This document shows positions 639-5,415 of a DNA stretch of 5,415 bases, one piece after another. The stretch spans positions 1 to 5,415 of the forward strand of contig JACETJ010000112.1 in the NCBI GenBank assembly GCA_013911345.1, in the 5' to 3' direction. The position numbers and the translations under genes were made by a program. The notes below the pieces were generated by a model. The model was not told the origin of the DNA. It did not search any database and saw only the letters and a list, made by a program, of their open reading frames with translations. Source of the DNA: Congregibacter sp. Its GTDB lineage: Bacteria > Pseudomonadota > Gammaproteobacteria > Pseudomonadales > Halieaceae. The stretch's first letter is position 1. Each line of letters begins with the position of its first letter.

Positions 639-3600
639 TCACGGACTGCTCTTAGACGCCTCGTAAAGTAACCATGCAGGCAGGCCTTGAACCGCGGGGT
701 CTGGCATCAAAGCATCTGGGTAGAAGGTCGCGACACTGGCGCCCAAGTCATTGATCGCCACAACCGAGCACGTGTACTCCACCTCATTAACAAGGCCCGT
801 GATGAGAATTGAGGAGCCGGCGGTCGTCGCCGAGTAAGTAGTGGTGCCATCTGAGCACGATGCTTGATAGCTCAACACCTCAATATCATCAGACGGTGAG
901 ACCTGAAGCCAGATCTCTTCGTCGCCTGTCTCTACCCGAGCGATCACAGGCGCTGAAGGTGGGGATGTCACCTCCCTCAAGAGCACGTTTAATAAATTGG
1001 AGGGTTGGCTGGCTCCGTAACTGTTAGTGGCAACCACCGAACACTGGTACTGCGTCTCCAACTCAGCTCCCTCAAGTATCAGAGGAGACAACGCTCCAGT
1101 GACGGAGAGAGCGCCACCTGTGTCGATGCGAAACAAACTGGGCCGGTAGTTCACCAGGCTGCATACCATTCGGTTGGACTGCTCCTCGGTGAAGCGGTCC
1201 ATGCAGCCATCATCCGAGTAATTCATAAAATTTTCGATTTGAGATACCCCGCCACAAACGTTGCTAGCACTGCAGCCGTAATCAGGTGAGCCATGAGGGG
1301 GTGTATCGAAAATGTAGTCCCCGGAGGTATAGCTGTTCGCACATGCGCCGCCATTGCCCTGAAACGTGTGCCAGAGCCCAAGGTAATGGCCGATCTCATG
1401 GACCAGCGTTCTGCCTTGGTCAAAGCTGCCGTAGCCATTGTCGCGACCACCCGTGGCGCTGTGCAGATTGACCACCCCGTCTAATACGCCTCCAGCGCTC
1501 TCGGCAGGAAACGTAGCGTATCCAAGATACCCGCTCGCATCATTGGTATACACGTTCAGGAATCGACTCTGATCCACACCCAATGCACTCTTATATGCCA
1601 GCTCGTCCAAAGCGGAATCAGTGAACCACTCATCATTTTGCGTGTAGGTAATGCCCTCGAGTTCAAAGCGAATTGACGTGTTAAAAATCGCCGCAAAATC
1701 CTCGTTCAACACATCGACTTGCGCAAGAATGCGGCTCTCCGAGATCCAGCCCTCGTTACTAGAGGTGTAGATCACGTGGAAATAAATGGGAATCACATAG
1801 GCGCCGACCGATAGCGAGTCGTACTCATTTGAAATGGTCGTTTGACTTAGGCTGCAATCTGCCTGACTCGCAGACGGGACTATCTTCGCTTGTTGACCTA
1901 AAACATTCCGCCCAGACATGTGGTCAGAACCACACCGTAGTCCCGATTCCCTGAACAAGGACGAAGCGTGTTGTGCCTCGAGCGACAGACTCATCGCTCT
2001 GGAGACATGTGGCTGCGGCGGGGCCATTCGAGCCTCGAGCAAACTACTGCTTGTTACGGGCTGACACGTCGCAGTGAAATTGTCCGCTACGCCACCCCCG
2101 GTATTTGGTGCGAAAGCGACTGCAATTGTGCCGTTAGATGACGACCCGGCAAGCGATGTCACAGTGGGCGCCAATGGGAAATTCGGGTCAATTTCAAAAG
2201 AGACCGCCACACTACAGTCACCGTTAATGGGGCCAGCCGAATGGGTTAGTTCACCTGGCTGATAAGCCCCGGGGCAAGATCCCCCTACGCTAGCAACCCT
2301 GTAGCCGGCATCTGGGGTCAAATTAAAGCTGATGCTATTGCCTTCAGTGACTGGCTGTGGCGACGCCGGGCTGATAGCGCCGCCTGTCCCGGCTGAGGGT
2401 GTCACCGTGAACACATTGGCCGTACTGGCTGTCAACACAGCGCCAGAGAAGCTGGACCAGCCGTTTACTCGTATGTAGTAGGTGCCCGGCTCGGGATCAT
2501 CGAAACTGCAAATCTCATCCTCTGGATAATTCACTGAACTACAGAGGGGATACGGCGGATTGTCATACAACGGCGAATTGGTAACCGGAGGAAAGGTGGT
2601 GTCAACAAAGATATCCGGATCTCCTGAATCGACCTCCAGCGTGACTTCAAGTCTGCCCGTGCCCTCCAGCACTTCGAATGAAAAATCCTGATTGCTCCCC
2701 GCGTCGCCCGACAGCGGCCCAACAGGTACGTTGTCCTGCAACGGCGAAATGGTGCTTTCACTCTCAAAGTTCGCTGTCACCTGCAAGGACTGATTCATGG
2801 TCACATCACATGAAGCGTCAAAGCCACTGCAGGCCCCGCCCCAACCGGCAAACACAGAACCAATACCAGCATTAGCTGTGAGCGTAACCAGAGTGCCAGA
2901 TGGAAAAACCTCGCTGCAGTCCTCGCCACAGTTAATGCCGGTTGGCGAGCTGGTCACAATACCTTCGCCACCTCCTGCGGCATTGAGGGTCAGCGTGATG
3001 TCACTGCTGTCGTCCACGATGCTGATACAGCTCCCCGACAGAGCGCTGGCGTTCTCCACTGCCATCGACATCCGCTGCGCGACTCGCTCGGGCAACACAC
3101 CTGATTGATGGTTCTGACCAAAGGTTCGGCTGATATTGCCGAGACCACCGCCAAGTAGATGGCAGTAACTCATGATCACCCCATCTCCTCCACCCGAAGT
3201 CCCCCCGGTTAACGCATTGTTGCTCGGCAACGAAGCCGAGCCCTTAGCACACAAGTTGCCAGGGCCGTCGGGCTCACTGATATTGCACGCGTCGACAGGG
3301 TCAACACTCTGAGAAAGGGTGCCGCCGTTCAGGTTGCCATAGCAGTGTGAGTGGGGAGAACTGAAATTATGGCCAAGCTCGTGGGCAGTAACGATCGCGT
3401 CCCAGCTGTTTGAAATGGGAGTGGTTGCATTGGGGGCTAAGCCAGTGATGTTATTCACGGAAACCCCATAAGACGCGTCACAGAGAACGCCTGAAAAGCT
3501 ATTGTCTCCCGCATTGGCATAAGGCGTGTAGGCGACACCGCAATCACCACCGCTGGGACTAAAGTGGGCGAGAAGCGCTCTGTTGATACTCGTGTTGCCA

Positions 3601-4811
3601 GCGTAACGCTGTTCCACCTCTGAGAGGCGGGCACCGCAACCCGCCCAGCTTTGGTAGGGATCCTCGGAAGCCGATTGCGGGATAATCTGATCACCAATAA
3701 GAAGACGGGTAGAAATCTCCGCCTCATACGTGACATTGAGATAGGCAAACAAACTGGCAAAGTAAGCCTGCACATCGCCGACAGACCCCAGCGTTTGCAC
3801 CAACTCATAATCGGTATCGATGGCTATGGTGGCGCCATACAACTGTCCAGCGCCTAGATTCGCCAATACTTCGAAGTCTAGAGACACCGTGCCGTACTGC
3901 GTATTGGTGTGCACCGCAAGCAGGTATTCGCCACTTTGATTCAATTCGCGAATGACACAGCTTTCCTGTGAGCCCGCCAGCAGAGGCGCGCATAAAAAGG
4001 TATCGGTGTCCGATTGCTCGCCATCCACCACATATAAATCGGCGTCACCAACACCTTGCAGGTCGACTCGAAAACCTTTGACGCCCTGCGGCACTTTGAT
4101 GCGGTAGACATCCGGCTCACCGTCCACGCCACCCATCAGCTGAACCGATTGGCCCGGCTTGAGTTCGCGTACAGCGGTGCGCTGCGCTGCCAAACTAAAG
4201 GGCAATACGCTGCCGCTGGGACGGTATTTCGGCGCTATGACCGATGGATCAACATCAGGTCTGACCTCGTCATCCTCAAAAGGATTACCAAGAATGAGTT
4301 CTGGCGGTCGATCGAAGGCTCGGATTCGATCTTCTGAAACCTCCATCGCCAGTTCATACCTGGCACCTTGGTCCTGCCAACTGCCCTGAAGCCGGCCATC
4401 GGCTCTGCGAATCAGTATCGCAACGCCGTCAGCAGAAGTAGCACTCTCGCCGACAAAAACTCGAAGCGGCTCAAGTGCCTGACGCTCAAAGCCATCCTCG
4501 GTAGGCCTCAGTAACCTCGCATTTGGCGCGTACAGGTGCACCTCACGGAAAGTCAGTTCTAGATTCTGCTGCGAGGGCAAAGTGAGTCCCTCTAGCCGCC
4601 ATCTGGACGCTCCGCCATTTAAAACTGTGTCGATCGCTGCACGCTCGTTGGCAGTATCGGGAAGTGCCGCCCATGCAAGCGGATCAAATAGTATGAAACA
4701 GAAAGCGATTAGAGCCCTGAACGCCCTACCGCCAAGTCGGACGAGAGCAGGCTCCGAGGCCGCCGCGCTAGAAATCACCCGCTGCCCGTCCCTGTGATGA
4801 TTTGCATCCAT
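639..4811 (-). CDS. Secreted dual-catalytic zinc metalloprotease: M12-like plus M43/pappalysin-like, with PPC, InlB-like and FN3 domains
   Basis: Role (inferred): an exported endopeptidase of 1390 aa acting outside the cytoplasm, probably degrading extracellular protein; the substrate is unknown. Domain order by residue: signal peptide 1 to about 48; cysteine-free presumed propeptide about 50-215; PPC-like domain about 218-315 (DADLYVVDG, then GEYLLAVHT); M12-like catalytic domain about 325-590, with zinc ligands H477, H481, H487, catalytic E478 and Met-turn M547; InlB-B-like repeat about 606-683 (FAGWGGACSG); PPC about 690-797 (GDPDIFV, GTYYIRVNGW); second InlB-like repeat about 799-874; first half of an FN3-like domain about 879-919; M43 unit about 920-1229, with ligands H1138, H1142, H1148, catalytic E1139 and Met-turn M1196; second half of that FN3 about 1230-1278; complete FN3-like domain about 1284-1369; short tail 1370-1390. 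The start is supported by an AGGAGGT ribosome binding site. Both active sites look intact and the frame is unbroken. There are no RTX repeats, so type II secretion is more likely than type I, but this is inference. The gene stands alone, opposing both neighbours. Confidence 0.93.
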   Translation of the reverse strand: MDANHHRDGQRVISSAAASEPALVRLGGRAFRALIAFCFILFDPLAWAALPDTANERAAIDTVLNGGASRWRLEGLTLPSQQNLELTFREVHLYAPNARLLRPTEDGFERQALEPLRVFVGESATSADGVAILIRRADGRLQGSWQDQGARYELAMEVSEDRIRAFDRPPELILGNPFEDDEVRPDVDPSVIAPKYRPSGSVLPFSLAAQRTAVRELKPGQSVQLMGGVDGEPDVYRIKVPQGVKGFRVDLQGVGDADLYVVDGEQSDTDTFLCAPLLAGSQESCVIRELNQSGEYLLAVHTNTQYGTVSLDFEVLANLGAGQLYGATIAIDTDYELVQTLGSVGDVQAYFASLFAYLNVTYEAEISTRLLIGDQIIPQSASEDPYQSWAGCGARLSEVEQRYAGNTSINRALLAHFSPSGGDCGVAYTPYANAGDNSFSGVLCDASYGVSVNNITGLAPNATTPISNSWDAIVTAHELGHNFSSPHSHCYGNLNGGTLSQSVDPVDACNISEPDGPGNLCAKGSASLPSNNALTGGTSGGGDGVIMSYCHLLGGGLGNISRTFGQNHQSGVLPERVAQRMSMAVENASALSGSCISIVDDSSDITLTLNAAGGGEGIVTSSPTGINCGEDCSEVFPSGTLVTLTANAGIGSVFAGWGGACSGFDASCDVTMNQSLQVTANFESESTISPLQDNVPVGPLSGDAGSNQDFSFEVLEGTGRLEVTLEVDSGDPDIFVDTTFPPVTNSPLYDNPPYPLCSSVNYPEDEICSFDDPEPGTYYIRVNGWSSFSGAVLTASTANVFTVTPSAGTGGAISPASPQPVTEGNSISFNLTPDAGYRVASVGGSCPGAYQPGELTHSAGPINGDCSVAVSFEIDPNFPLAPTVTSLAGSSSNGTIAVAFAPNTGGGVADNFTATCQPVTSSSLLEARMAPPQPHVSRAMSLSLEAQHASSLFRESGLRCGSDHMSGRNVLGQQAKIVPSASQADCSLSQTTISNEYDSLSVGAYVIPIYFHVIYTSSNEGWISESRILAQVDVLNEDFAAIFNTSIRFELEGITYTQNDEWFTDSALDELAYKSALGVDQSRFLNVYTNDASGYLGYATFPAESAGGVLDGVVNLHSATGGRDNGYGSFDQGRTLVHEIGHYLGLWHTFQGNGGACANSYTSGDYIFDTPPHGSPDYGCSASNVCGGVSQIENFMNYSDDGCMDRFTEEQSNRMVCSLVNYRPSLFRIDTGGALSVTGALSPLILEGAELETQYQCSVVATNSYGASQPSNLLNVLLREVTSPPSAPVIARVETGDEEIWLQVSPSDDIEVLSYQASCSDGTTTYSATTAGSSILITGLVNEVEYTCSVVAINDLGASVATFYPDALMPDPAVQGLPAWLLYEASKSSP
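1128..2054 (-). other. M43 / pappalysin-like metzincin unit with propeptide, nested in an FN3 domain
   Basis: Residues about 920-1228. The zinc motif HEIGHYLGLWH (bases 1368-1400) followed by THR1149 fits the M43 pattern. The Met-turn segment NFMNYSDDGCM has its methionine codon at 1224-1226. Upstream stand the typical family strands PIYFHVIY (1008-1015), LNVYTND (1085-1091) and GYLGYATFP (1094-1102), and DTPPHGSPDYGC (1169-1180) lies between the zinc motif and the Met-turn. RCGS at 959-962 (Cys960 codon at 1932-1934) sits in the propeptide position where M43B proteins often have an RCG motif, proposed to act as a cysteine switch. The unit has no signal peptide of its own. FN3-like sequence lies immediately on both sides. 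Confidence 0.88.
3042..3839 (-). other. M12 (reprolysin-like) metzincin catalytic domain
   Basis: Residues about 325-590 of the protease. The zinc motif HELGHNFSSPH (bases 3351-3383) has all three histidines and the catalytic glutamate. The Met-turn is VIMSYC (methionine codon at 3171-3173). The residue after the third histidine is Ser488, followed by HCY. Classical adamalysins have Asp there, so this is a bacterial M12-like branch rather than a true ADAM-type enzyme. Many cysteines (392, 424, 444, 490, 509, 521, 550) suggest disulfide stabilisation, as expected for an exported enzyme. The upstream propeptide lacks cysteine. Confidence 0.88.
4665..4811 (-). other. signal peptide of the metalloprotease
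   Basis: Residues 1-49 comprise a long polar, basic n-region of about 32 residues, a hydrophobic core (ALIAFCFILF, 33-42) and a small-residue end, LAWAA, with likely cleavage after A48 or A49. The n-region is longer than usual for Sec signals, but the strong ribosome binding site in front of M1 supports this start, and no internal methionine lies before the core. The cysteine at 38 is not in a proper lipobox (IAFC, with Phe at -1), so a lipoprotein is unlikely. Confidence 0.75.
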
Positions 4812-4946: not shown

Positions 4947-5415
4947 ATGAACAGCTACCGCGTTGGCGGCGCCGTCCGCGACACCCTACTGGGCTACCCG
5001 CACCATGAAAATGACTGGGTGGTGGTCGGCAGTACGCCCGAAGAGATGATCTCTGCGGGATACACGCAGGTCGGCAGAGATTTCCCCGTTTTCCTGCACC
5101 CTGACTCCAAAGAGGAGTACGCACTGGCGCGCACCGAGCGGAAATCCGGGCCCGGCTATCATGGATTTGTTGTGCACGCTGATCCTTCAGTCACGCTGGA
5201 GGAGGATCTTGAGCGCCGTGATCTGACGATTAATGCCATGGCTATGGATGGGTCCGGCGCGGTGATTGACCCTTACGGTGGCCGGGCTGATCTTGATGCC
5301 AAAATCCTGCGGCACGTTTCGCCGCATTTTGTGGAAGACCCACTGCGAGTATTACGCGTTGCGAGATTTACCGCGCGCTACCACCACATCGGCTTTACAG
5401 TCGCCGAAGAAACCC
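4947..5415 (+). CDS. cca: Cca, CCA-adding tRNA nucleotidyltransferase (3'-truncated by window edge)
   Basis: Seen: 156 complete codons from ATG 4947, open to the right edge. Known family: this class II nucleotidyltransferase adds or repairs the CCA end of tRNAs using CTP and ATP, in the cytoplasm. The nucleotidyltransferase head is visible: GGAVRD at residues 7-12; the metal-binding acidic pair E21 and D23 in [12 protein letters not shown] at 45-52; [13 protein letters not shown] at 56-68; [10 protein letters not shown] at 90-99; DPYGG at 108-112; and EDPLRVLR at 130-137, which carries the nucleotide-selecting residues. All are intact and closely match E. coli Cca. The start is fixed by alignment with the E. 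coli N-terminus (MKIYLVGGAVRD). No clear Shine-Dalgarno sequence precedes it. The C-terminal part lies outside the window, so whether this is the long gammaproteobacterial form with an HD phosphohydrolase domain cannot be told. Confidence 0.97.

Follow-up and report, generated by a model that had tools for sequence, protein, structure and literature searches.

Ulilysin is a separate secreted enzyme. In the insulin receptor, the insert domain sits in the C–C′ loop of the FnIII-2 domain. In the available extracts of two papers on this receptor, the long insert domain is described as cut by furin, while the chains are still disulfide-linked through Cys647–Cys860 (PMC2577065, PMC7039211). For the M43 protease mirolysin, the extracts name Cys23 as the cysteine-switch residue of the propeptide (PMC8259862). 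Cytophagalysin CPL1, as far as the extracts of its description go, carries eight Ig-like domains after M43, one of which is an FN3, and a predicted disulfide joins its catalytic domain to the next domain (PMC11674741).

Domain insertion as such is already common, being present in 20% of multidomain proteins according to the abstract of a 2026 survey (PMC13114784). The words fibronectin, immunoglobulin, peptidase and protease are absent from the main text of this survey. The open-licence literature searched, largely seen in extracts and with subscription papers mostly outside, contained no description of a protease nested in an FN3 and no wording of the kind "split" or "interrupted" FN3.

Here, a protein encoded on the window, i.e., on the whole analyzed stretch of 5,415 nucleotides, is described. 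With a probability of about 0.8, it is a secreted-type polyprotease with a complete M43 pappalysin zymogen in the C–C′ loop of an FN3, in which the FN3 would serve as a socket and the chain would be held together after propeptide cutting by the FN3 sandwich and a presumed C916–C1257 bond.

Results

Gene and Domain Layout

From its N-terminus on, the encoded protein has a probable signal peptide, a PPC, an M12B protease, an InlB-like repeat and a stretch that is probably another PPC; then come the split FN3 holding the M43 zymogen, a continuous FN3 and a C-terminal tail (Table 1). The two neighbours of its gene, the housekeeping genes apaH and cca, are both in the opposite orientation. P0007, labelled Luminiphilus sp., shares 64% identity with the protein over residues 870–1390 and 74% over residues 320–925, which makes a related gammaproteobacterium of marine origin the probable source.

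Table 1. Features of the window and of the encoded protein, with nucleotide positions in the window.
Feature	Residues	Positions	Strand	Basis or remark
apaH, partial		2–529	+
ORF of 1390 aa		639–4811	−	long minus-strand ORF
Probable Sec signal peptide	1–48	4668–4811	−	cleavage after AWA, reading from sequence
PPC domain	234–301	3909–4112	−	PF04151, best of 2 passing stretches
M12B reprolysin-like protease	328–509	3285–3830	−	profile match and motif, HELGHNF at 477
InlB-like repeat (Flg_new_2)	620–685	2757–2954	−	second stretch also above threshold
Stretch like solved chain 2luw ("Metalloprotease"), probably a second PPC	691–793	2433–2741	−	E 1.2e-6
FN3 left half, strands A–C	876–920	2052–2186	−	FN3 model positions 2–45; FN3 profile and structure models
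Insert between FN3 halves: linker, M43 propeptide, M43 catalytic domain	917–1230	1122–2063	−
Cys916, end of FN3 strand C	916	2064–2066	−	invariant across aligned nested rows
Cys960, putative cysteine switch of propeptide	960	1932–1934	−	86/86 rows, nested and free; promirolysin alignment
Cys986, second propeptide cysteine	986	1854–1856		86/86 rows, nested and free
M43 catalytic domain	1005–1226	1134–1799	−	profile, structure and family matches
Zinc-binding motif HEIGHYLGLWH	1138–1148	1368–1400	−
FN3 right half, strands C′ to G	1231–1273	993–1121	−	FN3 model positions 44–86
Cys1257, FN3 strand F	1257	1041–1043	−	presumed disulfide partner of Cys916
Second FN3, continuous	1283–1362	726–965	−	FN3 profile; Pfam fn3 stretch 1285–1358
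C-terminal tail GLPAWLLYEASKSSP	1376–1390	642–686	−
cca, partial		4947–5414	+

The tail motif GLPxWLLYxAxQ ends 58 of 70 nested M43 proteins, is internal in seven more, and was seen near the end of three of 208 other proteins (P0052, P0193 and P0229). It comes after FN3, InlB, Big_9 or calcium-repeat-like sequence and may be a sorting tag. The string GLPIWLLY was absent from the open-licence literature searched.

The Two FN3 Halves

An earlier note on this DNA had read the protein as having two FN3-like domains near its C-terminus, the first interrupted by M43. The motifs of this reading were found at their quoted places, i.e., NFTATC (911–916) and ETQYQCSVVATNSYGAS (1252–1268) in the split copy, and SYQASC (1314–1319) and EVEYTCSVVAINDLGAS (1343–1359) in the continuous copy. 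As claimed, ETQYQCSVVATNSYGAS and EVEYTCSVVAINDLGAS were identical at 11 of 17 positions, and the offset from half to half was 336 in the split copy versus 24 in the continuous one, a difference of 312. C1257 and C1348 each close a stretch of 24 residues, and these two stretches align without a gap, with eight identities. The junctions, placed by the note at 917–922 and 1230–1234, were refined: strong conservation of the FN3 type reaches as far as 916 and sets in again at 1233–1238, and residues 917–942 form a variable linker.

An FN3 profile was built from 37 continuous FN3s, which were selected by a pattern that demands the cysteine pair and from which the closest relatives of the window were excluded. 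It matched the left half with 10.0 bits and the right half with 21.1 bits, i.e., with modest scores, and the two matches were complementary in model coordinates with a two-position overlap (Table 1). The continuous copy scored 76.4 bits, and a further match at residues 658–693 (1.5 bits) was at chance level. When a split pair was defined as a left half followed by a right half more than 60 residues apart, 65 pairs were detected in 62 proteins among 279 sequences and none in the 279 reversed sequences. Pfam fn3 reports a single stretch in the window protein and leaves the split copy uncalled; a profile bridges a gap of about 310 residues poorly. This calls for caution in profile searches, as split domains can be missed in this way.

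Structure models were predicted for residues 870–1390 and 870–1282 from alignments that had mostly common rows, chosen as nested; in both models, the two FN3 halves formed one sandwich, and M43 was placed in the loop after strand C, i.e., the C–C′ loop, as the note had proposed. Single-FN3 structure matches spanned both ends of each model. For the model of residues 870–1282, these were 2xyc (92 aligned, rmsd 1.6), 3mtr_B (94 aligned, rmsd 2.1) and 2haz (96 aligned, rmsd 2.5). The matches ranged from 3–8 to 412–413 of the predicted model and thus described a seven-stranded FN3 sandwich.

The note had also expected a rigid scaffold with both ends of the protease tethered. A rigid mount was not supported on the left side, because the linker at about 917–942 is variable and of low confidence, with a mean pLDDT of 35 for model residues 51–70 (920–939). 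The propeptide was of low confidence in the model of residues 870–1390; a deeper alignment raised part of it, with model residues 95–111 still below 50.

Features of the M43 Zymogen

The insert had been interpreted as M43 propeptide plus catalytic domain. This was borne out, as the insert of the predicted model matched the whole pappalysin zymogens proulilysin and promirolysin. In a viral structure library, six matches at E up to 0.001 were named metalloproteases or ulilysin. The M43 profile PF05572 scored 47.2 bits, compared with a cut-off of 23. The zinc ligands of HEXXHXXGXXH were present in 86 of 86 aligned rows, and so was M1196, which from a reading of the motif would be the Met-turn methionine. 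Promirolysin was aligned from model residue 89, corresponding to its chain residue 21; therefore, Cys960 (model residue 91) falls on promirolysin Cys23 if this stretch is ungapped. Cys960 is thus a putative cysteine switch of the M43 propeptide, and latency is predicted. Since the conservation shared with free-standing M43 zymogens spans about 943–950 to 1226, the insert corresponds to a zymogen of the secreted kind that lacks just the signal peptide.

Nested and Free-Standing Relatives

The search for relatives, in which candidates were limited to 0.55–1.75 times the query length, found 138 proteins, of which 120 were listed. M43 was present in 117 of these and absent from three. Among the matches listed, M43 was classed as nested in the same FN3 loop in 64 of the 117 proteins and as not nested in 53. 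Both halves were called in 50 of the nested proteins, the right half only in 11 and the left half only in three; for these 14, alignment A1, which contains the window protein and 50 of the 64, served to identify the missing half, except in P0049 and P0054, where the cysteine columns of alignment A2 were used. The 53 free proteins comprised 45 without either half and eight with a right-half match of at most 1.1 bits, which was taken as chance. Alignment A2 covered most of the nested proteins (58 of 64) and about half of the free ones (26 of 53), together with the window protein and the free-standing relative L001 (59 nested and 27 free rows). All 59 nested rows of A2 have both C916 and C1257, and none of its 27 free-standing rows has either. 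Identities to the window segment reached down to 38% among 50 relatives. Named hosts of the nested form were Luminiphilus sp. (P0007, P0022) and "Proteobacteria bacterium" (P0035).

In the 53 listed free-standing M43 proteins, M43 lies near the N-terminus, and many of them carry PF19190 or PF17957. A scan of genome contigs yielded 15 stretches that fit a search pattern, one of which encodes a relative, namely L001 from a Desulfocapsa MAG. The L001 ORF is 333 aa long and incomplete where the contig starts; it holds the same zymogen alone and ends shortly after it. Of the genomes in the phylum of this MAG, 4 of 297 matched; the M43 ORFs L001, L005 and L008 were free-standing, and the matches of L006, L007 and L009 cover query residues 362–502 only, i.e., past M43. 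Ten plasmid records matched, none with a single place spanning 80% of the query.

The note had suggested a search for homologues with the same FN3 lacking the insert. Among the 120 of 275 matches listed for residues 320–925, which were mostly InlB-repeat proteins, there was no orthologue whose FN3 is empty at this site. The empty form was represented by continuous FN3s only: 47 were found, 46 of them different, including four in P0116, a protein without M43.

Other Domains in the Same Loop

Judged from sequence, the same type of FN3 loop appears to hold M12B zymogens and a P-domain in relatives. Six of the 65 split pairs enclosed cargo other than M43, and the remainder enclosed M43. In P0193, which represents a single sequence cluster, a P-domain (PF01483, residues 746–834) lies between FN3 halves at 666–710 and 842–876. 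M12B zymogens together with InlB repeats lie between the FN3 halves of P0013 and P0014, and another M12B lineage does so in P0044, its near-copy P0228, and P0229. The right-half scores were modest, with 7.6 bits for P0044 and P0228 and 6.4 bits for P0229. All FN3 halves around M12B or P-domain cargo were read as having a cysteine at both places.

The nested M12B of P0014 shares 55% identity over 551 residues with the un-nested, N-terminal M12B of P0228, which argues that the loop of P0014 holds a whole M12B zymogen. The nested M12Bs of P0044 and P0229 are 64% identical to each other, and their best un-nested matches among those compared, in P0020 and P0009, reach 30–36% identity. The M12B-in-FN3 cases would thereby represent at least two lineages.

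P0013 and P0014 differ both in the M12B zymogen that occupies their common FN3 slot and in their upstream protease (S8 or M12B). Their M43 rows in the tree are identical, and the longest contig of each has 18,574 bases; they are possibly neighbouring paralogues. P0228 has two M12B domains, and the first, within 222–395, reads HTMGHNFGLGHD, with the catalytic HEXXH glutamate replaced; this first domain may be an inactive enzyme kept within a multi-protease protein.

Descent of the Nested Proteins

A tree of 123 M43 rows was calculated with a quick method and rooted on 11 hand-chosen rows; P0202 and P0115 were excluded, as their M43 matches were shorter than 170 residues. The nested rows formed one group with a support of 99, which contained a single free row, P0052. 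The nested and free states require two changes on this tree, which does not tell their direction. Since un-nested P0052 lies within the nested clade, the history was not a single clean gain. In P0052, M43 is free-standing, numerous Big_9/cadherin-like repeats come after it, and the tail motif is kept (LPMWLLFEA). This protein may have left the FN3 socket; such an escape is possible because its tail is of the same type as that of the nested proteins.

P0009, with M12B upstream, and P0010, with S8 upstream, are 95% identical over their last 715 residues, and these are the sole collinear match between the two. P0017, with trypsin upstream, and P0020 are 84% identical over their last 515 residues, from the FN3 left half on. 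Because the members of each pair share their C-terminal parts, the cassette FN3[M43]-FN3-tail is, on the evidence of these comparisons, a unit that travels.

Discussion

The proposed mechanism gives the FN3 the role of a socket. With a C–F cross-strand cysteine pair pinning its sandwich, the FN3 would tolerate C–C′ loops of very different lengths and could therefore carry a whole folded domain with both ends fixed in one place. Cutting of the propeptide from M43 and release of the cysteine switch would break the chain inside the FN3. The chain would then still be joined via the sandwich and the presumed C916–C1257 disulfide, so that active M43 would stay attached to M12B and the accessory domains. 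The cut propeptide would remain tethered near its enzyme until degraded. Since the uninterrupted FN3s of these proteins, found by a pattern requiring the pair, have the same two cysteines, the C916–C1257 bond, if formed, was not invented for the insert.

A broader reading, put tentatively at just short of even odds, is that the cysteine-pinned C–C′ loop of FN3 is a general socket in a group of secreted bacterial polyproteases. Whole zymogens, of M43 and of two or more M12B lineages, would have been loaded independently, as would a P-domain; two loaded sockets would be possible per chain (P0013, P0014, P0044), and activation would proceed without enzyme release, with the propeptide kept on the scaffold. 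The FN3 loop looks like a reusable socket because related proteins appear to hold other domains there.

The strongest competitor is neutral insertion, in which the M43 piece landed by illegitimate recombination and was kept since the FN3 still folds, the nesting having no function of its own. FN3 loops in general tolerate insertions, and since the nested rows form one clade with a single exception, most of the conservation of nesting is inheritance, as this explanation would have it. It is nevertheless considered doubtful, although of real weight: this one loop appears to have received several domains with distant relationship or none to one another, M12B was nested in FN3 in what seem to be at least two lineages, and the nested form was retained while the upstream protease was swapped. 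The halves might instead be parts of separate small beta domains flanking an ordinary M43, in keeping with the Pfam fn3 call of the continuous copy only; this is highly improbable in view of the complementary model coordinates, the single sandwich in both structure models, the lack of split pairs in reversed sequences, and the presence or absence of C916 and C1257 together. A fusion of two genes through misassembly or misannotation can practically be dismissed, even though a good many relatives stem from metagenome data and fragments are among them (P0228, for instance, stops within an FN3 left half), as the protein is encoded by one open frame in the window and the same junctions recur in 64 of the 117 listed relatives, with identities to the window segment down to 38% among 50 relatives.

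That a domain as small as an FN3 hosts a complete inhibited protease throughout a family, and that sister FN3s apparently have other domains in this loop, points to a natural acceptor scaffold. Such a scaffold would account for the way in which multi-protease proteins are built and for their integrity through zymogen activation. FN3 is a scaffold already used in protein engineering, and its C–C′ loop could offer a ready-made site for displaying folded enzymes.

Among the relatives, the free-standing M43 proteins (L001 and the 53 listed) belong to the same M43 subfamily and have the propeptide cysteines in the 27 aligned rows, whereas the FN3 cysteines are absent from these rows. Mirolysin is, in the extracts of its description, a separate secreted enzyme (PMC8259862), whereas the M43 zymogen of the window protein lies between FN3 halves and lacks a signal peptide of its own. 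Cytophagalysin CPL1 resembles the window protein in being a secreted protein in which an M43 zymogen is accompanied by domains of the Ig/FN3 type; it differs in that its domains follow the enzyme in series, none being described as interrupted by the enzyme in the extracts available (PMC11674741).

The closest working precedent for cleavage with retention would be FnIII-2 of the insulin receptor, as a comparison of how the two work. We know of no homology between FnIII-2 and the split FN3 of the window protein. Both are FN3s with an insert, and retention of the chains by a disulfide would be common to both if the C916–C1257 bond is formed. They differ in their cargo: the insert of the insulin receptor is described, in the extracts of the respective papers, as disordered and non-enzymatic (PMC2577065, PMC7039211), whereas that of the window protein is an M43 zymogen.
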